64,000 bases of DNA from Gracilariopsis chorda (taxonomy: Eukaryota > Rhodophyta > Florideophyceae > Gracilariales > Gracilariaceae). The notes beneath the pieces are model-generated. The model was not told the DNA's origin. It was given only the letters and a program-made list of their open reading frames with translations, and made no database searches. Positions 26,216 through 64,000 of this stretch are shown piece after piece. Position numbers and translations under genes: made by a program. The DNA lies in contig NBIV01000273.1 in the NCBI GenBank assembly GCA_003194525.1, positions 1 through 64,000 of the forward strand. The letters are read 5' to 3'. Position 1 is the stretch's first letter. Every line of letters begins with the position of its first letter.

Positions 26216-26232
26216 AGGGTAGACTCCCTCAG

Positions 26233-43885: not shown

Positions 43886-46800
43886 GAAGCACTACTCGAC
43901 CTTGATGACATAAGTGCGTCAACCATTAGTATTTTTCATTCATTGTCCAAACTCGAAAGCCTTCCCCTTCCCAAGGGATACAACTATGTATGGTTACAGC
44001 CACGGCAGGTAATGGATCTGTCGGAATTTGAAAACGAGGCCGTTGGGGAAGATATAAACGTCTACCTCTCTCAGTCCCCACCAAAAGAAATATCAAGAAG
44101 GATTACCGAGCTTGTTTCGCGCCCTTGGCCTTTCCTACGTCACAGTTCAAGAAACGTTAGAAGAGCTGCACTCAACCTGCTTCAAAGTCTAACGGAAGTT
44201 TTTTCTGACAAAAAGCTTCTGCAATGGATTGAGCCACTATGTGCAGAGGGGTTCACGCACCTCTTCCAAAATGTGCTGCTTGAGACTAAACTTAATATCT
44301 TGACAACTTCAATGAATGTCTGGGATCGCGTGTTAGAACCACTCAACGGGAGGACTCCATTTCTTTTGGTTTTAATACAAAGCCTCAATCCCATGTTAGA
44401 TCTGTGGATGCATGCAACATCTCAAGAGTTGAGAGCGGAAGCAACGTCAGGTCATTACAGCCACAAAACAAAAGTTGGGAATTCCGCAATGGCAAATCGG
44501 AGGAAGACAGCAACGGCCATTGATGCAAAACTGAAGGCCGCGAAGGGGAGCTGAAGCCTTATTACTCAAAAAGTTCAAGATGGGGACTGCACTCCCGCCA
44601 TCGAAGGGCCTTATGATTTTTCTGTCATGCACCAGACGTTTTTCGCTGTCATTGGGCCCTTAGCTGCACAATGGTCATCCGATGAGCTATCCCTTCAGTC
44701 TGTTTTAGGAAAGTATCTACAGAGGAAGACTGCCAGGTCTAAACAACGCGTTTGTAAAAATATGTGAAATATGGGTTCTGACGTCCAAGGATGCCTCGTA
44801 TGTACTACCAGACGAAATAGCTGCATCTTTAGTTATGCTTTTTTAATTTAATGCAAATACGCTGTTCGCCGAAGTGGGTATGGGGGCTGGTCTTCTGTTC
44901 TCGGACACGAAAGCGTTCTTAGAGGCTATTCTAACCATTAAAAACGCTTTTGGGAAGGCAATTTTGAGTGTGAAGGATAACTTTGAAGAGGGTAGGCGCT
45001 ATGTTGGGAAGCTAACTCTCACCCAGCCTGCTTTCAATGCTAAGAAATTGTGGATAGAAATGGACGATTTAGACCCGGGCAATGTATGGAAGGCGATATA
45101 AACGGACTTTAACCTTTCTGAAATGCAGAAACGGTGAATTGAGTCTATTTCGGCTCTCTGAATGCGACTGAGTAAGTCCTGTATGGTCGTGACGAAGATC
45201 TCACCATCTCCACTTCTGTATGCGCCGTAGCAGTCATCGTAGTGGCTATCAGTATTCCAGTGCCTCCTAAAGTTGGCCCCTACATCAAATCGTTGATGGC
45301 TGTATTGCGAAAGGGTTACCATATGCATGTGCAGACTCATGCCACAGACTCAATCGCAAGCCTAGATCTCCGTATAGCTGCAGGTGATATGAGAAAGGCG
45401 ACTGATCTGATGATCAAAACCTGATCAAGTACCTGACAGCAGAACAAGAAACAAAAGAGGAGGAAATTATGGCATCCATGATTTCATCCGCCAGATGCAG
45501 GCGGTCACCGATGGCACTGGTGAAGCGGGGAGCATTGTATGTATTCCGTGCGTTCTGTGTGCAATTCAATGTGCGTTTGTTTTCAACTGTACTCTCATTA
45601 CGGAGTCACATAATTGGTCTTCTGAGCGCATGCCCAACCGAGGAACAGAGTCAAGAAGTGGTAGAAGCGTTAAAAACACTACACGCAGTGGTTTTGCACG
45701 CTACTCAAGACCTCCATTCAACCATCATTGATATAATTTCCCCAATTATCAAGATATGTATATCGCCGCATGAAGATTATGTGTATCACACACTACTATG
45801 TCTAGCCGATGTTTTCGCGCCTATTCCAGGGCAATTAATGCCGATGATCGTGTCAGGCCTTGTTACACTACCCTTTAGGATCCAGAAAGACAGGGATACT
45901 GACAGTCGTTCTCTTCAGGGTGCAGAAAAGGCGCTACGGGTGGATGTTGACTACCTTGGTTCAAACATAATTCCCTACACAGCGTTTCTCATGGTGTCCA
46001 TGAGGACTAGAATAGTTGATAAATATGAGATCGTTCGAAAAGCAAGTGCACGTGTGTTCGGGATGTTGGAACGTCTCATGCCTTTGGAACGAGGCATTCC
46101 AGACGATCCCATGATGAGTGAATCAATGTCTCCAAAACTAGAAGAAGCACAGAGCTTTTTCGGACTCTTATTGGGAATTGCACGTCGCCAACATTATGAA
46201 CTGCCTGTGCCTATTTGTCATGACATATGACTGCGAAAATATCAGCTAAATTGCTTTGACTGGCTAGCCTTCCTTAAAACGTACGGTTTCTACGGTGCTT
46301 TTTGTGATGATATGGGGCTTGCAAAGACCCTTATGAGAGTTTGCATACTCACAGGCCACTATGCTACAAATATGAAGAAATATTAGAATCTTCCATCGCT
46401 ATTCGTTTGTCCGAGCACAATCTTGGCTTACTGGGTACAAGGAGTGGACAAAGTTTTCGGCCATGTTTTACGAAGCGTCATTCACTACGCTGGGCTTCCC
46501 AAAGCACGGGCACGTATACAAAGCCGAAGCTTAGTAAGAGGTGGATCTTTAATAGTAGCAAACTATGACATTCATAGCAATGATTTACGATATTTTGAGC
46601 ATATCCACTGGAGTTAAGTGGTCTTTGACAAAGGCCATGTGATCGAGACTGCAAAAAATAAGGCAACCGACGCATTTCGAATCCTATCCTCAAATCACAG
46701 ATTGATACTCACAGAAACCCCTATCCAGAATTCAGTCATCGAACTTTCGGCTATGTTCGATTTTCTCATGCCTGGTTATCCTGGTAGTCACGAGAGCTTC

Positions 46801-47964
46801 AAGAACACTTATGCAAAACCGATAATGACTGCAAGAGAAGAGAAATGTAGCGAAGCAGATCAGAAGAGAGGTATACCACCAACAGAATCTTTTCATAGGC
46901 AAGTCTTACCGTTTGTCCTACTACGGTTTAAGGAGGATGTATTGGCGGAACTGTCGCCAAAGGTTAAACAAAACTACTACTGCAACATGACACCAGTTCA
47001 GTTGCGCCTGTACGAGGACTTTGCATCAGATGTCTCTAACAATTTCGAAGTCCAGTCGAATTCGAGAGAGAATGGAGCTCTGAAGGAATCCAAAAGTCAC
47101 GTACTCCAAGCACTATCCTATCTTTTTCGTTTATGCAGTCATCCAAAGTTTGCCCATTCTCCGAAACATCCTTGGTATCCCAGGGTTCACGATGCTCTGC
47201 ATCGCCAAGGCCGGTAGATCGATGATATGAAATCAAGTTCGAAGCAACTTGGACTAAGAAATATTCTACAGGAGTGTGGTATTCGCCTAGATGAAACGAA
47301 GTTTAGGGACTCGGGAGAACATCGAGTTTTCATCTCTTCTCAGCTAAAGCAAATGCTGGACGTCGTTGAGAAGGACCTCTTTGGCTTGCATATGCCCAAT
47401 GCGACCTACGTGAGGCTCGACGGTACTGTTGAAGCCAGAAGGAGACAGAGTATTATCACCAGCTTCAATGCTGACCGTACCATTGACTGGGTTTTGATCA
47501 CAAGTCATGTCGGCGGTATCACTCTAAACCTCAGTGGAGCCGATACAGTCATCCTCTTGGAACATGATCGCAGTCCAACTAAAGACCTTCAAGCAATAGA
47601 TCGGGCACAGAGCTTGGGTCAAACGTGGACCACTAATGCATATAGGTTGATTACTCGCGGAATGTTGAAAGAGAAGATTATGAGTATTCAGAAATTCAAG
47701 ACGCATATCGCAAATGCTGTTGTGAATCGAGAGAACTCCAATTTGGAATCCATGATCACGGAAGACTTGCTAGACATGTTCAAGGTACATAATGCTAAGG
47801 CCTCACTAGCCTACGACTCATCTCTTGATATCAATGTTGGAACTGGAAAGGGCACGAAGGCTGCTTTGGCATGGCTTGGGGCACTATGGGAAGAAAAGCA
47901 ATACGAGAATGAGTACAACATGGACATTTTTCTTGCTGAAATGTACACGTCAGGGAAGACGTGA
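43886..47964 (+). pseudogene. BTAF1: MOT1/BTAF1 pseudogene (TBP-removing SNF2 ATPase)
   Basis: MOT1/BTAF1 strips TATA-binding protein from DNA using ATP. HEAT-repeat segments come first (43943-44554, 45469-46200), then the SNF2 ATPase to 47964. Family-specific stretches include YQLNCFDWLAFLKTYGFYG, FDFLMPGYPGS, RQVLPFVLLRFKEDVLAEL, QLRLYEDFA, YVRLDGT, LNLSGADTVILLEHD and the C-terminal EEKQYENEYN. The N-terminal part of the 1,850-residue family is missing or unrecognisable. Decay is advanced: several frame changes and stops, and the ATPase motifs themselves are altered. Walker A reads CDDMGLAKT instead of DDMGLGKT, the DEGH box reads FDKGH, SGTPIQN reads TETPIQN, and DRAHRIGQ reads DRAQSLGQ. 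No intron was seen in the ATPase part. Confidence 0.9.
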
Positions 47965-48605
47965 TCTGTTGATTCGTAGCGTTGGTGGAAAAGTAGGCAC
48001 TTTCTCGAGAAGCGTCCTAACTGATTTCCTGCTGCAACTTTCACGGCGGCTCTTTCGTATATAGAAGACATGAACTGCATCAACTACAAAGGTAGCAGTC
48101 ATACCGTTTACGTTTGTATTTGGTATACGGTAATGGGTTCCATTGAATCTTGATAGCTCAAACAATTTATTTCGTACAGCACTAAGATATAGATTGCAGC
48201 TCGCCTCCACCCAGCGCTGAACGCCTCTCCAACTTTGATGAGTAAAATTATGCTAAGCAGTTATCAAATAAATCTTACCACCAATCGGCTCCAAGAGCCT
48301 CTGAATGAGTCTGTAGGATAACAATAATGAGAGCTACCTTCGAAGTAGTTGCTAGTAAATGTTCATCGAATATAGCTCTGATGGTTTCAAAATTATTTGG
48401 AACTGTTTTTCTATGTTCCGAGTGCCTTACGCGCATTCTCAATACATATTCGGTTGTTCGTCGTCTGCGCTTGCTAGTATCGCATGGCGCTCTGTTCCAA
48501 AAGTTCCATCATCTTCTTTTGGTTTTACAGTTGTTTAAGGATCATATTCTCGTCATTCTCATCTACTTTGCTCGATCTGTCGTACATCATTTGATACCAC
48601 AAAGG
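47965..48605. other. spacer, no gene seen
   Basis: An open frame at 48327-48671 on the plus strand is hydrophobic but has no motif and overlaps the end of the minus-strand gene on its right. I see no repeats or termini. Confidence 0.4.
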
Positions 48606-49538
48606 TTATTTTCGAGCCTCCAAAGCAGATCCGAGACGGTCCAGACCCCTCGAAAGATTGCCAACTTCTGATCGCAAATCGCCACTATCCCTTTGCGATC
48701 GTCGCCTACGCTTTCCGCTCGATTCCTCGCTCTCCAGACCAGTTGGTATGCCCTTTTCGTAAGCTGCATCAACTTCGCCGATTAGCTTAGTGGTCAGATG
48801 CAGAATTTTCGTATCTTCATCTTTGGATCCTAGCGTGCAGACCGTAAAAGGAGCATGAAAAAGTTTAAAATCAGCAGTCAGATCTCCAATAAAAGTATAT
48901 TGCAAAACATCTGGAACTCGAGAACCATCATTCTGAGCAGATGCAGACCATCGCTTGCCCAAAATTTTAAAAAAGCGCTCAACGTGGTTAAACGTGGTTT
49001 TCAGAACCATAGCAGTCAGATAACAAATTGGGTGCTTATTCAAGTTCTTTTCATCATTTTGACCACGAATGTTTTCCTTAGTGTCCAAATTCGCATCATT
49101 GAATCGATGCTCAACCACTGTTCTAAGCGATTCCCTTGTAATACTAACATCCAGCTGCATTTGTGACAGCTCTGTGCCAATTGCGGTAGACAATGCAAAA
49201 CGGGGTCGCCCATCCAGTACGCAAAGTCGAGCAAATTCATTCAAGGTGAATAGAAGATTAGTTCTTTTATCAGTCACATGTTTGCCATTTTGAGCTTGTT
49301 GTCCACGGTTATTGTGGTACAGCCAGTGGTGAGCACAAATTCCGTAAAATAGAACTTTTAGATTGGGCCTAACAGATGGGTTCCAATAGGCGGTGGTCTC
49401 TGTAATATAAGAATGGCGGCCGGGCGAATCCTGTAAGGAAATCCGCAAGCTCCAAGCAGAGAGCGCGTTCCTTGGGCGGAAGATAATCCTGCAGGCGCTG
49501 CTATGGGACGCGCTGGGTATCAGCAGCTTAGAAACCAC
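48606..49538 (-). CDS. hypothetical protein, 310 residues
   Basis: No family was recognised. The open frame begins MVSKLLIPSASHSSACRI. Its middle has a mixed helical/beta region with conserved-looking hydrophobic blocks (LKVLFYGICAHHWLYHN; ICYLTAMVLKTTFNHVERFF). The C-terminus is basic, then coiled-coil-like (GKRRRRSQRDSGDLRSE followed by VGNLSRGLDRLGSALE). It is uninterrupted, unlike nearly every neighbour, so it may be a live gene or a TE-encoded accessory protein. It sits between the MOT1 pseudogene and a third gypsy relic and is convergent with the former. No known motif allows a functional call. Confidence 0.45.
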   Translation of the reverse strand: MVSKLLIPSASHSSACRIIFRPRNALSAWSLRISLQDSPGRHSYITETTAYWNPSVRPNLKVLFYGICAHHWLYHNNRGQQAQNGKHVTDKRTNLLFTLNEFARLCVLDGRPRFALSTAIGTELSQMQLDVSITRESLRTVVEHRFNDANLDTKENIRGQNDEKNLNKHPICYLTAMVLKTTFNHVERFFKILGKRWSASAQNDGSRVPDVLQYTFIGDLTADFKLFHAPFTVCTLGSKDEDTKILHLTTKLIGEVDAAYEKGIPTGLESEESSGKRRRRSQRDSGDLRSEVGNLSRGLDRLGSALEARK

Positions 49539-50403
49539 ACCTAGAGGATGACGTAATGAAGTACCTGAAAGTGAATATCACGAAGTTGAACCAGACAAAC
49601 TAGAACAAGAATCGAGGGTGCTTGGTTTAGTTCCTCGGAGGTGGAGATTCCAGTGGCGTACTATATACAGTGCCGCGAGCTGACCTCGACAGAAACTATC
49701 TACTGCAACCTATAAAAATCTAAGTTAGGATTCTACCTAATTAAATTACATTCTACTGGAACAATTCCTGAGGAGTGGTGTGCCACGTGGCACCAGTTAG
49801 AAAATACAAGTACTCCGTTAGGAACCTTCCGTAACAGCCCATCATTAGGAGCATGCAAAGTACCCACTGTACTACATACCCCCTTTCTTGGATTACACCA
49901 CGTCCTCGAGGTGCATCATGCTTAAGTGTTCTTCTTCCTCGGTGATTCTGAGGGTCCACTCGGGGCGTGCCTTGCAGCGGTGAGTCTTGTTACCTCCATC
50001 GCAGGTGCTATCCTCTCATACACTTTCCTTCCGTGCGGCGTCCATTCGGAACCTCCAATGCAAAGAGTCGGCCCCAACCTCACGCGTATCCACCCGCGTC
50101 CGCTCATACCTCAGTTGTAACTTCTTCTGGTGCTTGGATGCATTTCATCTCCATTCCTCCATTTCCTCGTGTGGACGACTTTCATGTCCTGTAGAAACCC
50201 CTGAACAAGGAGCTATGAATCTGGTCCGCATTATGGAGCAGCCTACATCTCCTTCATTCTCCTAGGCGTCATCCGCACAAACTCCTGGACGGCGTTGCTA
50301 TAGTCCCGCGATTCATGAAGGACATATAAGTGGCGGAACTCCTCTGCAGGTATCTCCCTCCTTTTCTGGTGTTAACACACAACTTTCTCCTGCTCTTCCT
50401 GCT
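49539..50403. other. non-coding stretch, possible LTR of element 3
   Basis: No gene was seen. The position, just beyond the antisense ORF region of element 3, is where that element's 3' LTR would lie if it has the architecture of elements 1 and 2. There is no second copy in the window to compare with, so LTR edges cannot be set. Confidence 0.3.
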
Positions 50404-52216
50404 TTGTTCTTCTTCTTTGGAATGTCTAAAGCTTATAACGATCAATCTTCCACTTCCGTCGATACTCAGGTGTACCACACCTCTACTGGAGCCCCATACC
50501 GGCCTGGAGAGCGTTTCGATCATCACGCCACTCGGGTGTTCGTGCCTTTCTACGATCGGCAGGTCCGCCTACCATGCTCTGTCGGTGAATATATCCATCA
50601 TTTCGCATGATAACTTCAGACGGGGCGCTCTCGTGCAGTTCCCGAAACTCCCTGAAGTGAGGGCAAACGTAACCGTGAGGATTCGTATCGCGCTCATTGG
50701 CTACAAAGTCCGGTGCATGGCTATAACGCTCCGTCAAAGATGGGGTACTGCAATATTCCCTACCTTACGTGTATCGAGGAACACGAAATGCAGTCGCATC
50801 TGCAACTTTTCCTTCAGGAGGAATCCATTCACCATGCGGAGCGTCGTCGTGGCAGCATCTCGGATGGCTGCTCTTCTCTGGCCTTGCTTCCTTATGACCC
50901 TCTGTACGACAGAATCTATTGGTTAAACTGCAGTAGCGTTTGTACCAGCTCTGTGGACGAAACCCGTATCAACAACATCTTTGAATCTTTCTTCGGAGGG
51001 CACAACATGGAGTTCCATGATATGCCTTCAGGTCGGCGTTCTAAATACTACGTCCCAATTTTCAACTCCTGGAGGGAACATTGGGTGTCGCCTCACCTGA
51101 GCGTGTCGACACCCTCGTCTTGCATATCACACCTGCAAGGTACTCGATACCCACGACTTACTGAGAGGTTTCGGTATGTTGATTGCCTCTATGGAGTTCG
51201 CTGTGGGGGCCATTATGGCGTACCTTCAGGTGGCGGAAGAGGATGTCTTCTATTAAACGCGGAGCCACGATGGTGGCCTCTACTGGGAATCGTCATACCA
51301 GCCTACACCAGCTCGTTTACTTCCCCTTTTGGTGGCCATAATACGGTACATCTGCTCCTTGGGTGTCCAATAACTTCTCAGGGGCACCATGTGGAGTGCG
51401 GAAAAGGCGGATGCTCTTCTTGATCACAATCTTCAGGTGGATTGGTGTGAAAGACTCGGGCTCCTGTGGTATCACTATGGGGAAGAAAAGTTCTACCCCA
51501 TCAGGCGAAACCCAAACAGTGACGATGACGTGCGCAAATATGCCGCTTTTCCCCGCCATATTGAAGAGAGGACGCCTAAGGTGCCACGAGTTCAGGTCTC
51601 TGACTACTATCCTAAGGTGGAGAGTCTGTCAATACGCACGCCAGTTCCATCGCCGGTCGGAGGACTAGCTGTCACTCCTGCAGTGAGTGGTGATACTTCT
51701 CCTACTCCTGCGCTTGCTGCTGCAGCTCCCATCAGTGCCAGGCCGGCGTCGGTGGCCATGCTCCCTGCGGTGGGTATGGATGTTTCGCACATGAAGAACG
51801 AAGCAATCCCTTCTTTACCGGTGCGTCGAACGCCTTCGGTTCTTTCGGCTTCTCCATAGCCATCGCCTTCGGTGGCTGAACTTGCTTCTCCTATCGAGGC
51901 CAGTGCGTCTTCTCCTATAGTGGTATCTGCAGCTCTTTTGGTGGTTGCTACTGCAGTCCAGTCAACAGAAGGTGCGATGGCAGTCGTCTTTCAGGAGTTG
52001 GTGCAGGCCTGCCTTGGAACCAGTGCACAAGCTTCTCCCGTTGAGGCTAGGCACGAATGTCGCGGCTGGGTGCTAGAGCTCTGGGAGGTGCGTACTGAGA
52101 GCGATTCCCTGTGGGCGATGCATGACAGTCTGGAGGAATTCATCGACAACCAGACCACTGTGGCAAAGGCGCACTTGGATGTGGAGTATGCGGCGCGCTT
52201 TAGCGGGAACCTCTAG
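50404..52216 (+). pseudogene. antisense ORF region of element 3
   Basis: Plus-strand open pieces (50404-50610, 50713-51423, 51389-51859, 51872-52216) lie opposite pol. The first begins MSKAYNDQSSTSVDTQVY. A Pro/Ala/Ser-rich acidic middle (PVPSPVGGLAVTPAVSG) and a helical tail (WAMHDSLEEFIDNQTTVAK) follow. Layout matches the antisense region of element 1 (globular part, then low-complexity part, then helical end). Sequence similarity to elements 1 and 2 is too weak to assert by eye. The reading is broken in a few places. Confidence 0.45.
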
Positions 52217-53340
52217 GTGGTTGACATAGACTGTACGGATCTACTTAGCAAATTCAATAAAGCCAGCCCTTAGGTGTTCCAGTGGTTACATCTAAGGTTA
52301 GTGTTAAATTGGGTTCATTAGTCCCTATAGGTGCGAAAAGAAACGGCTAGAAACCTGTAGAGTAGTGTGAAAATGTGTGTCTCCTGTAGGTGAAGATAGT
52401 GAAGATAGACCCTTGCTGGTCCTTCCCCCCTTCTCAAATGAAAAAAGTCTACGAAAGTTGCGGTTTCGCTCCAGTGTGGCGTGGTATTGCCTGAGAAAGT
52501 TGTCCGGAATGTGTTCCAGAGCTTCTTCCGTATCACCCACTGAGGTGTAGCAGTACCATTAGACGCGGTACTTGATTCCTGAAGGGATTTGACGGTGCAA
52601 CACGATGTGTCCCACTGCATATACAGTCCCATTCTGCGGTGTGGGAAGTACGTCCGGGTTATCCCAAGCAGTACTTCCTAAAAGAGGGTCATAGTTATTC
52701 ATTGAAGAGATACGCCGGTCTGCCGATAATACCTTAGGTGAGCGCGGAATGACCGGTCTTGTCGCTGGTGTCACCTGCGGTGGAGGATGAGTAATCCGTG
52801 GCCGCTGAGCTCGCTTCCTTGGGAGGGGCTCTGAGATTTTTGTCACCCAGTTTTGTGAGAGGTTATCGTGGAGCCCGCCAACCTCGATGGAGATCGTATC
52901 CTTCTAAGTGACGAGGACTTCGTAGGGCTCTAAGATGTTTCGCGCCAATTTGCTGGTGACGTCTGGTGGTTCTTCTGGCGTCTTCTGGGGTTTATCGGGT
53001 ACAATGTCATCCCATTCCTTCAGGTGCGGGCCTTGCTTCACTTTGAGGTCAACACCCTGCTTGTATCTCCTTTGAGAGACCGTCAGCCTAGCCTTCGCAA
53101 TGCGAGTGCATTTTCATACCACCTGATGGTTGCAATTTTCGATTGGGCTGCCGTGGGAACCTGAGGAGCGTCTGAAGCGTACGCCGTGGCGCGCGCGGGA
53201 ATTAGGGTGCTTGGCTGGATCCATGACAGCACTAGATTGAACGGTGAGGTCCCTGTGTAGCGGTGCACCTGAAGTTTATAGACATACGTCGGTGTTCTCG
53301 TTATGCTAGTTTGGCATTCAAAAAGCAAAGAATTAAAATG
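50404..53340 (-). mobile_element. Ty3/gypsy retrotransposon remnant, element 3
   Basis: The minus strand near 53083-53328 carries the integrase core-to-C-terminus stretch HRYTGTSPFNLVLS, a hallmark of gypsy integrases (compare element 1's HRTTGVSPFELVLS). At 52559-52950 lies the integrase C-terminal module (TISIEVGGLHD, then a Pro-rich tail, PLPRKRAQRP). The rest of pol and gag are not present in the window. Plus-strand ORFs at 50404-52216 face this pol end, as in elements 1 and 2. The sequence differs strongly from elements 1 and 2, so it is another family. It is broken throughout, and its ends are undetermined. Confidence 0.7.
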
Positions 53341-53633
53341 AACGAATAACGACTCTTGAAACCCAATTTTGAATGAATCAAATTTCTCAAAATAATTCCA
53401 TACATAGCACAGAGCTAGCTTGCTTAGGACAAAAGACTAGCAGTATACTACACATTTCCCAGTGTCTTTGGAGGTAAAACTAGCGCTAGAATCCACTAAT
53501 ACCTACCCTCTCAGGTGCACATGGAGTCCAAATCTTACTGCTCCTGAGCGAGTGCCCCTTAAAATAGCAAAATAGAATAGATAGAATAGATAGAATAGAT
53601 ACATACCGTTTACATAACCAAATAGCTTTGGCT
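53341..53633. other. AT-rich spacer with a 9-bp microsatellite
   Basis: No gene was seen. It contains three exact copies of tagaataga at 53573-53599. It may include the right-hand part of element 3. Confidence 0.5.
53573..53599. repeat. 9-bp tandem repeat (tagaataga) x3
   Basis: Three perfect adjacent copies, followed by tacat, a partial variant. Confidence 0.85.
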
Positions 53634-53833
53634 TTCTATCACCCGTTGCTTGACCTGCTCCCTGCATCGCATGCTCTACCCCACGCCCTACAGAAAGACG
53701 CTCTGCATCACGTGCACCACCTCATATACGTGCGCCATAATATTACGCTCCCCACTATCCCACTCCGCCACTCCGCCACCACCCTCCCTTCTCTGTTTCC
53801 AAGCATCCCGTTCTCCGTTCTCCTTCCCCCGCC

Positions 53834-54900
53834 ATGATACCCTGTTGCCATCCCCGTTGCACCTTCTATGGCCGCACCGCGTTCTCTCTCCAGAGTCACC
53901 AACGCAGGTGCCCTCTCCCCATACTTCGTCCCAATCCCCCTCCCCTCTCCTCAACAACCCCCATCTCGAGCAACTCGTCCTCTGCATATCCTCCATCGCT
54001 TCCTCCTTTAGCACAGGCAAAGCCGACGAACTCATCTCCCTTCTCAACCACCCGGACTTCTCCAAGTCAGCCTTCCAGAAATCCATCTCCTTCGCAAAGC
54101 AGTGCCTCGCACTCCAAGAACACCTCGTCAAGGGACGTATCAACTCCACCAGTTTTATCCCTCTCACAATCTCCGACGAGCAGAACTCCTTCTCCGCAAC
54201 TCTCTTCCAAAAAGGCGCCATAGACGTCCTGAAGCAACAACTCGCTCTCGCACACTTCAACAACATCTTCTTACAACGCGTGTCCCAATCTTCACCTTAC
54301 TCTTCTTCAACCCCCACCTTCGCCCATCCTATTGCCGCAGCCTTCGGAAACAAAGTCGTTCCTGTCTTTAAACAGGCCATCACGCAGTGCCACATCAATG
54401 ATATCGTCTGGCACACCCCCGAAACAACCGGTATGGAATCATTCGTCGGTCTCGTCCAGTTATACTCCGATACGTCTGTACCCTCACTCAAAGGCTCCTC
54501 CATCACCTCCTACCCCCTTCACATCACCCTTCTCAACCTCTCCGACGCATTCCACCGAACGTGTGTCTCCCAAAACCACACCCTACTCGGATACCTCCCA
54601 ACTTTCTTCTCCCCCTCTTCCTCCCCCGGCGACGGATACTCCATCCCACATTCGTCCTCCAACATCCCACGCGAAACAAGAATGGCCCTCATTCAGAGCG
54701 CCATCTCCACAGTCTTCCGTTTCGAAGGTATCCACAGCACTACCTTTGCTTCTCTACACCCATTCCTAGCTATTAAACGCGGTTCACCGTCATCGCAACC
54801 TTCATTCTCCAATTCTTCACGATGTAGTTCTCTCACCCTCTCCCACGCCACCCCAAGTATTTTCTCCACCGCAAGCCGAAGATACTCCCCGTACAACTAG
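53834..54900 (+). mobile_element. zinc-finger transposase-like gene, Plavaka-type N-terminal part
   Basis: From the ATG at 53834, a C2HC-like finger is read (CCHPRCTFYGRTAFSLQSHQ), followed by a Ser/Pro linker. The frame then shifts to the long frame that is open from 53650, which carries NNPHLEQLVLCISS and FAHPIAAAFGNKVVP. Near 54460-54600, LYSDTSVPSLKGSSITSYPL, HITLLNLSDAF and HTLLGYLP match the first-Asp region of Plavaka/KDZ-like transposases, where fungal copies read SSDKTQL...YPVYLTIGNLPK...LLAYLP. The C-terminal catalytic half is absent: the frame stops at 54900, 68 bp from the end of a convergent gene. The family assignment is by eye and moderate. The same superfamily lies at the left edge of the window. 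Confidence 0.5.
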
Positions 54901-54967
54901 AAATTAACAACTGCCTTCTTCCTCCACGCCCCATATCTTTGTCCATTGCTGTCAAAACAAATCCGAT

Positions 54968-57041
54968 TCACGCATCCAAACGAGCCAAATGCATCACTGT
55001 CCCATCATGGTACTCCATCTTTCCCTCCCTTTCCGTCCCCACCTCATATCCCATTAATTCTTCCAACACTTCCACGGCAGCCCCGTTCTTGAAGTACATG
55101 TCCTCTTCACTAAACTCCCTCAGCCGACCAGCAACCTGATATCCAGAATACGTAACACCCTCGATTGTTCTCATCCTCCAAGAACATAAACTACCGCTCT
55201 TCGCCTCCCCATCCCCCTTGAACTTCGTCTTTGCTTCCTCTAACTGCTTCTTCAACTCAATGTCTAGCCCCGTCCCCTCTCGCGGTCTCACCCGTCTGGG
55301 AATCAAGTCATATCCAAGCAACGAAAGCATTTTGTCCGGTGCCGCACGCTTCCGAATCCCAATCACATCACTCAAATTCTGCTTCATACGTTGCCTCAAA
55401 CACCTGTCCGCAACAACCTCCCGCACGCATTGATCCTTCCTACCCGCATCACTAATCGACTGCCATCTCTCCCCCTCAATCTCAATGCCAACCAAGTACT
55501 TCAATTGGTCATTACTTCCTCCTCGCGACGAAGGCGTGTACGACTTCATCTCAGACGCGATCTCAAACGGACAATCGAGGCACAATTTCCTTTTCTCCGA
55601 CGACAAACACACTCCACTCTCTTCCCTTCTCCCATACTTTGCATAGATTATTCCAGTTTCTTTCCACACCCTCCAAAGTAAAACAAACTTCTGATACCTC
55701 CACCTTCGCATAGTACAACAACCTATCATATGATACCCTGGCAAACCCATAAAAACTCTCTTGCACATCAACCACATACTTCCTACTCCCTCTCAAGCAA
55801 TTTTTACCTTCAGATCTCTTTCTCTCCCCTCTTCCCACCTTCATCCATTCCCGTAAGCTACCTATCAATATATTCTTCTCGCTCATCTCTTCTCTCATCC
55901 TCTTGAGTTCCTCTTGCGTCAGCTTCAGCGATATCTTTAGGCTGCAGTGGTCCCCTTTGATCTGTCCGAGTTCTGCCTTCAACATATTGACCCTCTCAAC
56001 TAACGAAGATCAAGAAATCACACCGATGTCGTCATTTCCTGCATCTCCCAAAACATTGACATGCGGGCTTCGCTCGTCAGCAGGTTCACTTGGCGACCGA
56101 TGAACAATTCATTTTCTCTCTCGCATGCCTTCCAGAGTCTGCGGTGTTCTGCTTTCTCTATCACTTTTCAAGTTTTCAGCCATTTGCACCTTTTGCGTCC
56201 GCACGAGTGTGCTTGTACGGTCTCCGCTTTTCGATGCTTCCTGTATTCCATCCGTCGCTCTGACCACTTCTTCCACTTCTCGCGTTTCCTTTAAATTAGA
56301 GCGGCGTCCCACTCCTTCGTTTATCATATCTCTCGTCCATCTCTCCTTCACAATGTGATCCTCTTCGTCCCCATCACTGTGTTCCAAAAAGACATTTACC
56401 TGTCCTACATCTCGGTTTCCACTTGGGGCCCCACGTCTCTTCAGCGCACCTGCCTCTTCTATTTGTTTCCTTCCGGGCATATCTTCATCCTTATTTCGGT
56501 CTTCGACCCACGCATTTCCTTTCAACCCTCCCTGATCTGTTACCTCTTCCGTTCTCCGAACAACCAACCCTTTTTTACCCTCCACTCTACCACCCGACCC
56601 AGGCATAGATCGCTGTCCCCGAACCGAATCTCTCCCGCCTGCTATATGCGCATGGGCATCAGCCTTCAAATTCTCATTCGTCGTGCCCTCACTCGTCGTG
56701 CGCTCGGATCCGACGTTCTTTGCCCCACCTCTTCCCCCTCTCTTCAAAGCACCTTCTCCTGACCTCCTCCCCGATAATCTGCTCCTGGGAACACATGATT
56801 TCGCTTTCGTTCCACTCGCGGGTCGCTCTTCAATAGCATTTCGCCACGTCTTAGCCGCACTCGCCGCACTACCCCTTCCTGGGCCTCGCTTCTTTCCCTT
56901 CGGCGCGATTCTTGGAGTCAAAACTCTTGCGCAAGTGGCTGGTGACGCTCTGGAATGGCGCACGCCGTGTGTTTTCCGGGAAAATCTCGCCACCCGATGC
57001 GCACAGAAATCTTTGCTTTTTGTGAAATCTTGAAAATACAA
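54968..57041 (-). CDS. unrecognised basic protein with coiled coil; frames interrupted
   Basis: No family was recognised. An N-terminal open frame (57041-56109) gives 310 residues rich in Arg, Lys, Gly and Glu, probably disordered and nuclear. A coiled-coil piece follows (55985-55563, KISLKLTQEELKRMREEMSE). The last piece (55777-54968) contains SDVIGIRKRAAPDKMLSLLG, GVTYSGYQVAGRLREF and EVLEELMGYEVG, which looks globular. The first two pieces share a frame but are separated by stops. The second and third overlap in different frames between 55563 and 55777. Either introns or decay is possible. It is convergent with the transposase-like gene on its left and lies downstream of the methyltransferase-SET gene on the same strand. 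It could be a partner in either unit. Confidence 0.4.
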
Positions 57042-57123
57042 TCCTCAGTGGTACCGAAAATGGACGTTTCTGTGTCACATCTATACCGTTTTGTATCTTC
57101 TATCCCTACTGAAAAGTAATATT

Positions 57124-57138
57124 GTCCTAAGTTAGGAC
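57124..57138. promoter_or_regulatory. 15-nt palindrome between two minus-strand genes
   Basis: gtcctaagttaggac is a perfect 7-bp inverted repeat around one central base. It lies about 80 bp upstream of the minus-strand gene starting at 57041 and about 70 bp past the end of the methyltransferase-SET gene. It could bind a dimeric factor. No function is shown. Confidence 0.35.
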
Positions 57139-57206
57139 TACACAACCGTTCACATAATAAACGACATCCTTTAGCCAAGCTGTGGAGAAAGGTTAATAAC
57201 AACAAA

Positions 57207-60200
57207 CTAATCAATGACTGTCGTTCCATCCTCCACATTCAAATGGTTTTGCCAGTCATAAACATCACCGTATCTGGCGAAGAGTTCTTCTCATTGCTCT
57301 ATGTTGGCTGTCACCTCCATCTTAATAAGTTTGTAGTGCGTTATTCCCCCTGGTGTTCGTCCCACTCCCGGTGTCCGTTTCATTCGCACATTAGCCTCCC
57401 TTTTTTTCACGAGGCCATCCACCATGGCATCTAACTGTTTATCCCCTTCGACGTACTTTAGATGGTTGATATACCCCGCAATACAAAAGGGGAAGGAACA
57501 ACCCATAAAATGGGGTTTGCTTGTTTTCCATGCCAATTCGTCAGCTGTTTTCGATGCGGAAGTGATTGGAACTGTTGACCGTAGACTTCTATCTCCACCG
57601 CATACTTCCGGAAGCGATCCTTCGTCACACCCATGACTCCCTCCCCATAGGTCTTGTGCACTTCTTTCCGATTCGAAAGGTCATGATAAACCAACGTTTC
57701 GTAGAAATAACACACTACCTCGCCTGCAGCAATTCGACGACTTGCAAACACTCCAACACCAGCCTTTTCGTGACGAATAGTAGACTTGCCCACTCGCAAC
57801 CCATATTGCACAGCCTCCATTGCCAATAGAGACTTCATGTTCTCCAGTTTCATTATTCCCTGTAGCTCCATCGGCCATCCATACATAACTTTCTTCCTTC
57901 CCAACTTCCCTAGAATTCCACTTTGCCACAAAGTGGAGAGAAAGTCGAGAAGGTGTGGGGGAAGAATTTGGTACGGTGGAAATCCGTCGACAGCCCTCCC
58001 TAACACGGTGTGCCTGCTTCTCCCCATTGGGAATGCAGAGGAAACACAATGGGCCATCTTTCGACGCTCCTGGCTCTTCTCAATATCCGTGTGTCCTTCC
58101 CGTATTATGGAAGCGAAGCGAACAATAGCGGCATGCCTGGCGTGTTCAAAGCAAGCTTTGTCCGGTTCACACCCCACAAACTTCCGATGCTTGGGCAGTT
58201 CCATGCACGCCATCGCTGTCGAGAACGTTCCGGCAAACATGTGGACCACGAGGTCTCCTGGCTGACTGAACCTGCAAATCAGCTCTTTCAACAGTGCCCT
58301 ACACTTCTGTTCCGGTCGCACCCTCTTCCTCGTATACTTCCCATCCGGGGTTTTCACAGAACACATAAGCATCTCACTATTTGATATCGGGGGCACCTGA
58401 TCCATGATTGCATGATACGCTGGGTATCGTGAAGCAACATAATTGAAGTTCTCATATTGGACCATCCGGTGCTGTTGTGCATAAGGAACTCCAGACCGAA
58501 CAGCATGTACAGCGTATTCTGTCGTCTGGTGCAACCGGCAACTTCTTCTCCCAACGTTACCAGTCGTATTACCTAAAGACCGTACGAAATGGAGGGGCTG
58601 TTCGTCGACGACAAAGAAGTAACGCTTCGTATCAGAGTCATCCAGGTAGGTAACTTTCCGTAGCACATCCCGCCACAACGGTACCTGATCCCAATGAGCA
58701 GAACTGTATAATATGTCCACCAGAACGTAGAAGGTTTGACGGCCTCCTCGCTGACCTGCTCATGCCCTTCTCTGTCAGAATATCGTGTTCGCTGTTCTCC
58801 AAACGACGCTCAGAACGAGTCCCATATGGCGGATCGGAAAGCAGGAACTGTACCCTTCCTTCAATAGATATCTCACTTTCGCCAGACTTGTTGTCGTCAA
58901 CTTCGATGAGATTTTCGAACTTGCAGTTGTGGAAACGAAAGTTGTGGGACATCTCCTTCTCACAGTACTTGTAAGCTATCACATCATCCAAAGTCGTAGG
59001 GTACGGTGGTGCACGAATACCCGTGCCTTCGACATCATAGGATACGTTCTGGGACAAAGCTGTTGTCTGCAGTCCTTCAGTGGCCTTTGGTGCAGTACCA
59101 CGTTCTGCAGTACCACTTTCCGCATCCTTTACCCTCTCTATCTCTTCCACTTCTTCCAAGTCACCCTGATCACCACCTTCCACACGCTCAGCACGTTCGT
59201 TCCCACCACCAGCCGTACCAGTTTCTACCAGCTCCATAATGATTTCAACGTCTTCTGCGGGCTCTGTTTTCACAGCTTGATGTACTTTGACATTGCTTCC
59301 ATGCAATTCAATGAACTTCAGAGGCTTTATGGCATTTTGAACCGTAGTGAAAAGAGATTCACTAAAGTTCTCAAACCGCAGAGGGTAAAGTCTCGTTCTC
59401 GTGATGATGAACGTTTTGAGGGGATCCCATTTGCTGGGAGCAGAGATGTCGAACAGTTTCTCTTGTAACACCACATTAGAAAGGTCATCAAGGTATTCTT
59501 TGGCACGAAGGCAAAGCGCTGTATCCACTGGGTTCGGCAGATTCCATGCCCATTTGGTAACGTTTTCTTCTACGGTGGTGACGTTCTTCTCCTCCACAAA
59601 CTGTTTGGAACAATCATTTTGTTGGAAGCCCATGGAGCGTTCTACGATATCGGTGAAGACTACACTGATATAATCGAGTCGAATGTAAGGCAAGATCATA
59701 AACTCAACGTTGGGAAACCCGAGAAATCGGGGGAAACAATCCCAAGCCCTGGTCACCAGCTGCACACCATACCCAACTCTCTGACTCTGGGTCTTGTCCG
59801 ACAAACTCACTTTCGAGAACTTCTTAGCTGCCATGCCCCTTTTCCTTTTTCTACCACTTCCTTTCTTATCCACGGCATTCTGTTGCACCATAGACAACCC
59901 AATGACCATTTGAAAGTCGGTGCAAGGATCCGTGTGGAAAGCGGAAGATTTCTTGGTTGCTCCCAGAACAAGGGACTAGCAAAAGACAGATAGCAACACG
60001 TTACGGGGAATTCCTTTAAGCCCTTCCCTTTTACAATAAACCTTCCAAAAGTCCCTTACACGCCTGCCTTCTTCACGGTCCTTTACGTCCACCACTCTTG
60101 CCATAAGATAGAGTTGACGTGGAGGGCCTCTGAGAGACATGTTACGGAGCTCGGAGTCCGAACACGAGATGTAATCCGGTCCCATGAGAGTGAGAAACAT

Positions 60201-60359
60201 TTTCTCGGCAGAGTCATGAACGTTGCGACGTTCTACCGCGAACTCCACAAAGTCCGTGTGCTTCAAACTTTTCGGCTCATCCACATTTTGCCTCGTCGCT
60301 GCGTAGTCATCACGAACTGCAAGATAAGCATCAATAGGCTCTTCTCCGGTTCCGTGCAT
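57207..60359 (-). pseudogene. DNA amino-methyltransferase fused to a SET domain
   Basis: Starts at ATG 60359 (MHGTGEEPIDAYLAVRDD). A basic, nuclear-signal-like KKGSGRKRKRG follows near 59850. The methyltransferase has DPPYGT at 58824-58835 (motif IV) and, C-terminal to it, GDLVVHMFAGTFSTAMA (58180-58262, SAM motif I) and FVGCEPD. This is the beta-class order of bacterial and phage N6_N4_Mtase enzymes; DPPY favours N6-adenine. A SET domain then follows: GVGVFASRRIAAGE near 57740, YINHLKYVEGD near 57460, and EELFARYGDVYDW near 57250. Reading is interrupted by TAG at 59976-59978, a frame change near 58705, another near 57480 and TGA at 57291-57293 (Gly in other SET domains). All catalytic landmarks survive. 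It is either a young pseudogene or mis-assembled. It is divergent from a ParB-like gene, with a large palindrome 42 bp upstream. Confidence 0.72.
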
Positions 60360-60400
60360 CTTGAATGAACCCGTTTCCTTCGAATTATGTTTCTCTTCGT

Positions 60401-60556
60401 TTTGGGTCGAGGACCGTGGTCCGAGGTGTCATGGTGCTCCATCGCGAAGAAGATGGAGCGCCAGGCATGAATTTTAATTAAACTTTCGCGTCCTGGCGCT
60501 CCATCGTGTTCGCGATGGAGCACCACGACACCTCGGACCATGGTCGTCGACCAAAA
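60401..60556. repeat. nested palindrome, 65-bp arms, 26-nt spacer
   Basis: Arms 60401-60465 and 60492-60556 are inverted copies with about 59 of 65 positions paired. The spacer contains attttaattaaac. Each arm itself folds: gctccatc...gatggagc in the left arm and gctccatcg...cgatggagc in the right, so the unit ctccatc appears four times. It lies in the shared upstream region of the methyltransferase-SET gene (start 42 bp away) and the ParB-like gene. It could be an operator, a parS-like site, a cruciform or a small foldback transposon. No clear target duplication flanks it. Confidence 0.88.
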
Positions 60557-60974
60557 AATTATCAAATTCTTTTTGCAATGCAAGTAATTGGGAGGGGAAT
60601 TGCAGGGATGCTACGTTGACGACAATGGATGTCATGAAAATGATATTCATCTCTTTGGAACCAAGCATACGTGATCACGGAAGCATTCGACGTCAGCGGG
60701 TGCCAAGAAAGCGCAAGCGTGACCTTTGAAGTACTCAGCCATAGATTCGACTGGGAATAAGATAAACGCGCCACCACGGAAACGGACTCCGAGGAAGCCT
60801 GTTTCGCCAAAGAGACGTGTTATCGACATGCCGACCACGCGAGGCAAAGCGAAGAGCCGGGGCGCCACCTGAACTGCCAGCCACCCTGAGCCATCAATTG
60901 GGGGCAATACGGGTCAGGTGCTTAAGGGCGATGCGGAGGTCAATCAGTTCGTACGAGTTGGGAGTAGTGATGCG
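60557..60974. promoter_or_regulatory. upstream region of the ParB-like gene
   Basis: This is the remaining divergent intergenic sequence. A minus-strand open frame (60647-60907, 86 codons, contains GMSITRLFGETGFLGVRFRG) reads somewhat protein-like but has no ATG at its start and no recognised domain. It might be a remnant exon of the methyltransferase gene's 5' side or chance. Confidence 0.35.
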
Positions 60975-63353
60975 ATGGTGAAGGTAGGAGAGGTGAAATT
61001 GCGCGGTGTGTGGGTTGCTGGGTGGCCGGGGACGAGAATCTGTCGTTCACTACACAACCATCCCCTGTCCTCTACGCAGAGACCTGGAGAGGACTTGGTG
61101 GTTATCTTTAAGATAAATATTTCGTCATACCAAGATGAGAAGTACCCTTGTGTTTTTGAGGGTCCCGAGGAACCGCCAGCAACTTTGAAGGAGATGGTTT
61201 CAGCAGGTTTATATGCATGGGACACTGCGATGATGAGTGTCAAAAATGAAGGCGGAGAGGGGAGTAAGTCGGTTCCACTGCAGTCAGGAGCAATTGTGAA
61301 GACTGTCCACAGAAGTACAGCTTCCAGGACCACTGCAGGACAAGTCAAGCGCATTCCCGCTGTTGCTGGTACACCATCAAGCATTTTGGTGACCAAAGCG
61401 CCGGTGAAGAGCCTTGAGAGCGGTGGAGAGGCTCCGGTGAAAACCCGTCAGAGCGGTGGAGGAACATCAGGTGCTCTTGCGGGCGGCTCTGGAAACCGAG
61501 GAGGCCCTGAAGTTGGAGCAAGCTCCGATCATGACGTCATAGAGGTGCCTGTACTCTCCAGGAACGATCTTGATCCGGAGGAGAAGGTTTTATATGATGA
61601 TGGTGATGCTGTTCCTTCGGAGAAGGTGGATAACAGTTTGGGGGTCTTAGACATCAATCGAAATGACCATGACCAGCACAATTGCGTACTCGATATCCAC
61701 AACATTCTATTTCCGAAGAACATGGTTCGTTCGAAGAATGACAAACATCTTCGAGATACTTCGAACAAACTGAGGAAATTCGGATGGCTCCCTTCTCTTG
61801 GGTGGATTGCCGTGGCCCTGTTGGAGGATGTGCCGGCTCGTGACGTTATTGATACGAGTGGGCGTTTGATTGTTCCTGTGGTTTTGGTGGACGGCTTCCA
61901 TCGGGTAATTGTTCTACTGGACCTCGAGCAGGATGGTGTGAGGTGGGCACGGATTACTGCTGGGTTGAACGTCACGCTTTGGGAACGGAACGACGGCCGG
62001 AGAATGACATTGAATGAGTTGTTGTGGCTGGGGAAGAAGTTGAATGATTTGAGCTCCAATGTTCTGGTGATGTCCTGCGCAGATAAGATTCACACTGCTG
62101 TTTCGTTTATTCGTAATGGCGTAGAGCAGGATGGGTATGAGTTGTCGAAGCTTAAACCAAGCCGAATCATGGAGGTGTTGTGGAGCAGTGAGACGAAGGG
62201 GAAAGAAGGGAAGATACGTCATTTCAATCGCCATTCTGCGCTTGCTCTGAAGTTTGCGCGTAATCCCGGTCTGTTAGAGTTCTTCGATGTGGTGTGCCAG
62301 GAGACGCCTCAAATTGGAATCACTCATGTGTCTAGTGATATTCTGCTTGGAATGTCAGGGGATAAGTTTCGTTTTACTATGCAATGTCTACAGGCGCATG
62401 TTCGAGTGAGGTCGGCGGCCACTGTGAAGATGGGACCGTTTGAGGATTTCCGAAAGTACTTCTTCGACTGCGCTTCTAGAACGTATGACATTTGCAGTGA
62501 GCTGGGGAGTTCCATGAAGGAGAGAAGGAATGTACCGGAAGTGATGAATACCACGGTTACCATCTGCGATTCTGACCAGACTGTGTCGAAGTATATCATA
62601 TCTCGTCTGGGAAAGAGGTATACGAAAGGGAAACGCAGTTCACTGGAGTCCAGAGTGAGTAATAAGGTGAAAGAGGTTCGTAGGACGTTGTCCAGCGCTT
62701 TTTCGGGCATGCAGAGACAGGATGCTACTGCTGCTGCTCCCTCTGCGGCCGATGTGGACGTGATCGAGTTGCTTGGTCTGAATGAGGAAGCTGCTAAGGA
62801 GCCTCTGAACGCTGACCAGGAGCCTCGAAGAAGTAAGCAAATCGCAAAGAAGTGTAAAGTGGAGGTCTTGGACGAAGATGAAGGTGAAGAGTCATTTGAT
62901 TTTGAGCCACCGATGAAAAGGCAGAGACCATCGAATCGTAAGCCGACTGCACCTGATGTGAAGCGATTTGGCTTTGGTATCTCGCAGGAGGTGGTGTAGG
63001 TGCTGCATAGTATGGAAAGGAGAGATTTGGAGAGGTGGCTGACATCACAGGAGATCATTGTGCCCGGGTCAAGCGAGGATGAAGCTCAAGAGGACTTTGT
63101 GGATGATGAGGAAGACGAGGCAGAGGAGCAGGAAACCACAGGCAGCTTTGACGATAAGAATCCTGACAAGCCTCCAGCTGGCGTAAGTACGCCAGGAGAG
63201 CTGGCTATGGGAGTGGACATGTGTTGGGTGGACCTGGTATACTCGTTGCCGAGTGAGTGGCCTGGAAGCGCAAAATGCAGTGAAGCATTCCCATCCATGG
63301 ATGCAGAGGATAAATCTGAGGAAGCACCATCGGGCGGAGTGCCTATCACCTGA
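60975..63353 (+). CDS. large protein with ParB-like domain; one in-frame TAG
   Basis: The frame is open from 60918, but the first ATG is 60975, chosen as start. The N-terminal 130 residues resemble no family I know. A Gly/Ser/Thr-rich linker follows. At about 61670-62110 a ParB/sulfiredoxin-like fold is suggested: CVLDIHNILFPKNMVRS (ParB box-I position), LRKFGWLPSLGWIAVALL, then VLVDGFHRVIVLLDL, the counterpart of the ParB box (G-x-x-R in bacterial ParB-like proteins). C-terminal to it is a helical region (62150-62700) and an acidic, Lys/Arg-rich tail. TAG at 62997-62999 is followed in the same frame by 117 acidic codons (SSEDEAQEDFVDDEEDEAE) to 63353. This means a nonsense mutation, readthrough or a separate small gene. 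Otherwise it is intact. It is divergent from the methyltransferase-SET gene. ParB-like proteins are CTPases or nucleases, or help target methyltransferases in phages. Confidence 0.6.
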
Positions 63354-64000
63354 TGACTTCTAAATGGTTCATCATGCTGTATACTGGCGTGCGTCACGCA
63401 ACATACACAAAGAGATGGGTACTACGACACGTGCAGTGCTGGGCGTGAAGATGGGGTCGTGAAAAGGAGGTTGGAGGAGAAGGACGAAAAAAGATTGGAG
63501 GTTAAGAGTCGGTTGAAGAGGAGGCATGGAAAGAGGGAAGAGGGAGAAGAAGGCTAGTGATGTCTAGGAGTGTCGTTGAGGCTGTTAGGAAGACGGAATG
63601 GGTGGTATGGGAATCTGATGTGCGGTGCGTCAGGTGTCTGAGAACGGAAAGAGCTGCCCAGATGAGTTCCTGAGGATGCGTTGAAAGTCAAAATAGGGCA
63701 GTATGAAGTTTGAAATTCAAAAGAAGGAAATAAAAATGTTGGTTTTGGCTGGGTGCTCGAAATGGCGCTGGCCACTGCGCGGCTAGCGCCATTTCAAGAT
63801 CTGTATCTAGCTTTTAGTGGAGAATGAACTTGCTCTAAACTTGAAACTAACGATGCGCAGTGCAGGTGAGGCAAGGCTCTGTAACATATGGAAGTGTGAA
63901 TTCCAAAGAATTTGTTTCTTTTACTTGGCAAGCGCCAGAAACTAGCATAATCTATCATTTTTGTAGTATTTTTGAGCTTTTGCCTAAGAAACTTGCGATC
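63354..64000. other. 3' flank of ParB-like gene
   Basis: No gene was seen; the 63554-63775 minus-strand frame has no motif. A purine-rich stretch (63460-63560) and one hairpin (63759-63795) are present. Confidence 0.4.
63759..63795. terminator. 15-bp-arm hairpin downstream of ParB-like gene
   Basis: gaaatggcgctggcc and ggctagcgccatttc pair over 15 positions with one G-T wobble around a 7-nt loop. It could be a transcript-end structure or a foldback remnant. In a nuclear genome a hairpin is not itself a terminator, so the label is tentative. Confidence 0.4.

Follow-up and report, generated by a model that had tools for sequence, protein, structure and literature searches.

The window analysed here is the whole stretch of 64,000 nucleotides (positions 1 to 64,000, forward strand) of contig NBIV01000273.1 from the red alga Gracilariopsis chorda (assembly GCA_003194525.1). 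It contains a Plavaka-type DNA transposon in the form of a dead copy with internal deletions, which belongs to the older (A) of the two subfamilies described below. Within this copy, a gene that joins a DNA methyltransferase (MTase) to a SET domain lies head-to-head with a gene for a protein with a ParB-like motif. The interval between the two genes (60360-60917) holds a large palindrome, an arrangement that the initial annotation of this DNA had described correctly. The parts of the copy are as follows.

53287..64000, no strand: transposon copy, ~10.75 kb, with its right end 35 bp beyond the window
53287..53309, plus strand: left terminal inverted repeat (CGTCGGTGTTCTCG...), with its partner at contig position 64013-64035 and TA flanks on both sides
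53650..55005, plus strand: remnant of a Plavaka-type transposase, in several frames, most of the C-terminal half gone (PF18759 E=0.005)
55508..56969, minus strand: remnant of an element gene without assigned function, 41% identity, ~729 aa in copy C332
57210..60374, minus strand: MTase-SET fusion gene, spread over three reading frames in this copy
57210..57760, minus strand: SET domain, with a frame break inside that is common to copy L042
58139..58845, minus strand: N6_N4_Mtase domain, its upper limit approximate, with FAGT at 58139-58558 and DPPY in the neighbouring frame
60400..60557, no strand: 158-bp palindrome of the divergent promoter region, found 1-3 times in each of the other A copies and with arms that are conserved in subfamily B
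60756..63453, plus strand: divergent gene with the ParB-like motif (core at 61536-62633), lacking beyond 63453 the HxD domain that other copies have at the C-terminus
63417..63536, plus strand: remnant of a small gene of the right arm, whose product has 259 aa in copy C204

Transposon ends, transposase and copies

A DNA search with positions 44001-64000 recovered five copies (C336, C211, C212, C184 and C42) that start matching at 53279-53287 and thus share a left boundary. Terminal inverted repeats were found as a raw match between 53282-53309 and 64013-64040, and comparison of the copies placed the true termini, CGTCGGTGTTCTCG, at 53287 and 64035. Seven of the ten copies with both ends recovered are flanked by identical dinucleotides, namely TA in the window copy, C336, C197, C232 and C314, CT in C64 and CG in C144. 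The transposase domain PF18759 is present in an intact 907-aa open reading frame (ORF) of copy C144 (L043; E=9.8e-22, 78 bits) and in L048 (77.3 bits), while the remnant in the window scores 16.5 bits, under the cut-off of 26.3. A C(2)C and an H(3-4)H motif, both preceding the last catalytic E, have been described as characteristic of fungal Plavaka elements (PMC12730594; the literature is cited here and below from partial texts). Both motifs occur in L043:3710-6433, where CPRC and HLLDH precede an E, as read by eye and with the catalytic D/E residues as candidates only. The element moves by means of its own transposase between 2-bp target duplications.

The genome searched comprises 91.3 Mb in 1081 contigs and yielded at least 101 rows matching the MTase-SET part and at least 76 matching the plus-strand protein. 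Subfamily A, consisting of the window copy and most other copies, shows protein identities mostly of 80-93%; many of its members carry stops, and at the DNA level the loci compared are, for the most part of their length, 5-9% divergent from the window. In subfamily B, the C144 gene has 40 DNA matches, of which 38 show 99% identity or more. Subfamily A is old, and subfamily B is young and recently amplified. Various B copies retain intact genes for the transposase (906-907 aa; L043, L048), the protein of ~729 aa and the MTase-SET protein (1060 aa; L047), and L045 has intact genes for the plus-strand protein (1417 aa), a 413-aa protein and a 259-aa protein. The full element is estimated at ~17 kb, a sum of distances in C204 and C332, each of which is incomplete in its contig, and not the length of an assembled contiguous sequence. 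In the window copy, most of the right-arm genes and the C-terminal part of the plus-strand gene are missing. The initial annotation had considered the core of an unnamed mobile element as one alternative, and this is what the locus proved to be: cargo of a many-copy Plavaka-type DNA transposon.

The 413-aa protein (L045:1537-2778, minus strand) has several strongly hydrophobic stretches and is a candidate membrane protein. In L031, L032 and L034 (C184, C42 and C211), the MTase gene is deleted and the ParB-like gene kept, with both ends present in C211; such deletion copies hint at non-autonomous copies mobilised in trans.

The MTase-SET protein and its divergent ParB-like partner

The MTase domain matched PF01555 (N6_N4_Mtase; window:57458-58720, minus strand, E=2.5e-9), and its DPPY motif, in the adjacent frame, precedes FAGT, so that the beta class and motif order originally assigned to it were borne out. 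The SET match is weak in the window (E=0.0062). The gene is broken there, since it is divided among three reading frames (60374-58695, 58714-57473 and 57527-57210). Copy L047, on contig C332, has a single open frame of 1060 aa that spans both domains (L047:5082-8264), with 66.8 bits for PF01555 and 22.0 bits for SET, slightly below the cut-off of 22.4. Across the genome, a SET match lies 373-430 bp behind a same-strand MTase in 59 of 85 rows, compared with 0 in three control arrangements. The fusion of the two domains is real and conserved.

A profile of the MTase-SET family matches DpnA, MboIIA and CcrM in its MTase part and SETD8, KMT2C, vSET and EZH2 in its SET part. The idea of a captured prokaryotic module is tenable only in part, as the MTase is of a bacterial class but the SET domain is of eukaryote type by profile. 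The MTase target is probably adenine N6, with N4-methylcytosine (4mC) possible; N6-adenine is the better guess because the nearest solved MTase structures are mostly adenine enzymes. The SET part is predicted to be a probable histone-methylating enzyme. Two A copies have a frame break at the identical point of the SET domain (L042:5488-5542 and window 57473-57527), which may be a recoding site or else a lesion that was inherited and propagated by mobilisation in trans.

Among 5.8 billion proteins we found 18 relatives of the MTase-SET protein, of which P0001 is 94% identical and the remaining 17 are 21-37% identical (alignment A1). Precomputed domains include both PF01555 and PF00856 in 11 of the 18, and a scan of six relatives detected SET at E<0.002 in all six and PF01555 in five. 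The SET scores of P0002 (28.5 bits), P0012 (31.3) and P0013 (40) are all above the cut-off of 22.4. One relative has a named source, a Bacteroidota metagenome-assembled genome. In P0014, a ParB-like N-terminus (PHROG 1033, E=2.1e-5) is fused to MTase-SET, which supports a functional tie of the ParB-like, MTase and SET parts; P0018 is ParB-like by motif only and is without DPPY. The P0014 N-terminus gave no tblastn match in phages and plasmids at E<=0.1. In the viral (at least 80) and prokaryotic (at least 56) loci listed, matches were restricted to the MTase part, and among the IMG/VR loci listed (at least 80), no match extended beyond query residues 484-776.

The divergent plus-strand ORF (60918-62999) contains a VDGFHR-type motif. 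A DGxHR-type motif is typical of ParB proteins, and it was matched by only three of 553 ORFs, all three of which are the divergent gene. No ParB match to the plus-strand protein was found in PHROGs, NCBIfam or Pfam, and ParB_N (PF02195) had 0 matches genome-wide at E<=0.1. An in-house ParB profile ranked three ORFs of the divergent gene 24th, 48th and 51st of the 157 listed (E 26-47). The protein was also compared by profile with the N-termini of P0014 and P0018 together with 14 bacterial ParB domains, taken from 20 loci of which the others yielded no ORF or no motif. The hhalign score was 14.9, in the expected register, and the best of 100 shuffles scored 17.8; when only the bacterial domains were used, the real score was 11.7 and that of the reversed control was higher (15.3). 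When the divergent protein was aligned to single relatives by hhalign, the expected motif was aligned with P0018 (E=0.028) and another region with P0014. AlphaFold2 models had a pLDDT of 34.4 for the ParB-like core (13-row alignment) and 32.9 for the HxD domain (10-row alignment). A protein-database search with the plus-strand protein (best 7991 candidates scored) found no relatives at E<=0.001, nor any at E<=1. Thus, the profile searches recovered N6_N4_Mtase and SET but not ParB, and of the ParB-like protein initially proposed, the motif is present and the fold is putative.

In the C-terminal domain, HTDF and a later H were spotted by eye, and by eye only this HxD domain resembles an iron/2-oxoglutarate oxygenase. 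It had no match in Pfam, NCBIfam or the PDB (an unnamed PHROG appeared at E=0.39), and profile searches of the element returned no TET/JBP match. Matches extend to residue 1368 or beyond in 11 of the 20 loci listed, the window being among the 20: L022, L023, L024, L026, L029, L032, L035, L037, L038, L039 and L040. Those of L025 reach residue 1158 of the plus-strand protein.

The palindrome between the two genes is a 158-bp inverted repeat (60400-60557) that is 86% self-complementary, and A copies have one to three of them. L045 holds two copies, one of which is perfect at 86 bp. Between the window palindrome and the two in L045, the arms are 74-80% alike across 30-66 bp (best E 2e-4); the intergenic region is otherwise diverged between the subfamilies, the next match having E=0.48. 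The 21-base arm of subfamily B occurs 106 times in the genome with at most one mismatch, compared with 0 for the backward control, and the places listed are mostly inverted pairs.

Gene order and selective constraint

To count neighbours, 150 of 175 PF01555 candidates and 123 of 133 PF18759 candidates were scored, with 114 rows of the latter used, so that the counts are lower bounds. PF18759 lies within 9 kb of 71 of the 150 PF01555 places, compared with ~3.4 expected under uniform placement, and the two are convergent in 70 of the 71 cases; the transposase thus adjoins nearly half of the MTases found. Twenty-five of the 59 MTase-SET loci are on contigs outside the match lists of the A and B copies. 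Plavaka-MTase loci beyond these lists, again in convergent order, are C12:175554-179279, C228:8556-11822 and C330:6997-10670.

When the subfamily-B version of the ParB-like core was used as query, 118 rows were obtained with identity down to 28%, of which 98 were counted as ParB-like places and 20 left out as continuation fragments. An MTase lies within 9 kb of 65 of the 98, and it is divergent in 65 of 65, so that the conserved divergent pairs envisaged at the outset do exist. At 28-38% identity, an MTase is in range for 16 of 27 places and divergent in all 16; one more row of this lower group, with 70% identity, is not included in the 27. Since all linked pairs are divergent, the MTase-SET/ParB-like pair represents a stable order across deeply separated families in this genome. 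The linkage of the element parts is ancient.

We next compared the genes of the two subfamilies by simple Nei-Gojobori counts of dN/dS, which are rough because dS is ~1 or above in most between-subfamily pairs. MTase-SET, compared over 785 codons of copy L042, had a ratio of 0.18; the ParB-like core and the HxD domain each had 0.13-0.14, the transposase part tested 0.31 and the unassigned minus-strand protein 0.30. Three pairs of A copies gave 0.6, 0.8 and 1.5 for the ParB-like core, as expected for dead copies. These results show that the MTase-SET and ParB-like cargo is kept under purifying selection.

Elsewhere in the window are ORFs of a Gypsy-type LTR retrotransposon (20997-28407, minus strand; integrase core 20997-23219, reverse transcriptase and RNase H 23898-25523) and an ordinary eukaryotic gene (8294-10168, minus strand), whose ORF has RSE1/DDB1/CPSF1 propeller and CPSF_A domains.

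Possible functions and comparison with known systems

We consider it likely that this transposon, with its constrained MTase-SET and divergent ParB-like genes, serves element-borne epigenetic self-marking or anti-silencing. The ParB-like protein would bind the promoter palindromes and regulate or target the MTase-SET enzyme, which would methylate element DNA (probably at adenine N6) as well as histones on the element. Element copies could in this way maintain a permissive or marked chromatin state of their own and escape or modulate silencing by the host. In a more elaborate version, which we regard as possible but doubtful, the ParB-like protein would load at the palindromes and spread or recruit MTase-SET to set joint DNA and histone marks, with the HxD domain as eraser or editor. 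The element would then define its own chromatin in the manner of a partition complex, across many families of one superfamily.

Several observations weigh against the self-marking or anti-silencing transposon as a whole or in part. The window copy is itself broken. The flanking dinucleotides differ in three of the ten copies with both ends (C286, C211 and C51), and in seven more copies (C13, C27, C48, C187, C6, C69 and C1) the left end is absent from the stretch examined. No Plavaka match lies within 9 kb of 79 of the 150 MTases, and no MTase match lies near 33 of the 98 ParB-like places; these unlinked places may be deletion copies, contig ends, products of incomplete lists or other contexts. 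The ParB and HxD identities were assigned only by motif, and profile tests for ParB gave negative results. NHS is the usual catalytic motif of SET domains, and this SET domain has IND in its place, although the YG near the C-terminus is retained. A cytosine-N4 enzyme is found further down the list of closest solved MTases, behind mostly adenine enzymes. Finally, the element ends, CGTCGG..CCGACG, are unlike those of described Plavaka elements, which are TGT..ACA or CATCA..TGATG (PMC12730594).

Other explanations of the same genes were weighed. An element that methylates its own ends or promoter, such that cutting or transcription is confined to newly replicated DNA in the hemimethylated state and SET tunes the host at the site, would have a precedent in Dam-regulated bacterial transposons. 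The joint retention of MTase and transposase in convergent order (70 of 71) and the predominance of adenine enzymes among the closest solved MTases are consistent with such methylation-timed transposition, but it alone leaves the SET and ParB-like parts unexplained, and we consider it unlikely. About as improbable in our view is that the element restrains itself by silencing marks that limit its copy number, in the way of bdelloid N4CMT and SETDB1. That amino-MTase does deposit 4mC at transposons, in concert with histone methylation (PMC8885841), yet it is a host gene with a chromodomain and not a transposon gene, and the recent burst of subfamily B (38 of 40 matches at least 99% identical) speaks against restraint.

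Two further explanations are very improbable and were set aside. A bacterial regulatory module, captured or domesticated by the host, that just happens to lie among repeats would fit the bacterial class of the MTase, but not the roughly one hundred copies with common ends, the fixed order beside a transposase and the nearly neutral decay of the A copies. A large DNA virus integrated into the genome would fit several cargo genes in an element of ~17 kb, and one plus-strand ORF has an SU10 capsid match (PF17236, E=0.058, 13.3 bits). This match is far under the cut-off of 24.1 and absent from the full-length ORF, however, and no other capsid or polymerase match was found among the element ORFs scanned; the short size, the terminal inverted repeats with 2-bp flanks, the Plavaka transposase and the restriction of the listed IMG/VR matches (at least 80 loci) to the MTase part likewise argue against a virus.

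If the self-marking or anti-silencing reading is correct, this is a DNA transposon in which a single protein pairs a DNA-base writer with a histone writer, accompanied by a co-conserved divergent partner gene. It would make testable whether mobile elements program their own chromatin, and the element would be a candidate source of N6-methyladenine (6mA) and 4mC in eukaryotic genomes.

The initial annotation knew of no eukaryotic system with these three parts. This still applies to the full combination, in that the portion of the open-licence PMC literature available showed no Plavaka element described as bearing a DNA methyltransferase, SET or ParB-like gene, but published work does report SET, TET/JBP or DNA methyltransferase genes in transposons. 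Fungal Plavaka DNA transposons make target duplications of 2 or 2-3 bp, and some carry a TET/JBP dioxygenase, which is also known from other fungal transposons (PMC12730594, 2025). The element described here resembles them in its PF18759 transposase, terminal inverted repeats, target duplications of 2-3 bp and epigenetic enzyme cargo, but differs in that this cargo is a DNA MTase-SET writer with a ParB-like gene. Because of its CGTCGG..CCGACG ends it is neither PlavakaA nor PlavakaB by ends, and therefore represents a further lineage with a Plavaka transposase. Oomycete HarbingerS and MuDR elements are likewise DNA transposons with a SET gene (cited in PMC12730594); they have other transposase families, and the text available mentions no DNA methyltransferase fusion for them.

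Among retrotransposons, DIRS elements with Dam-like MTases and dinoflagellate and charophyte elements with DNMTs have been reported (PMC5890265). These are also mobile elements with a DNA methyltransferase, in one case under purifying selection, but they are retrotransposons with other MTase classes, and the term SET domain occurs 0 times in the text of that source. Bdelloid N4CMT, which deposits 4mC at transposons and acts alongside histone methylation, also joins a bacterial-type PF01555 MTase to a eukaryotic chromatin domain, but it is a host gene outside any transposon, and that domain is a chromodomain and not SET (PMC8885841). The red alga Asparagopsis taxiformis has 66 N6_N4_Mtase genes, compared with 4-6 in three other red algae (PMC12115072). 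Like G. chorda it thus has many PF01555 genes in an algal genome, and transposon cargo of the kind described here is a candidate reason for that expansion.

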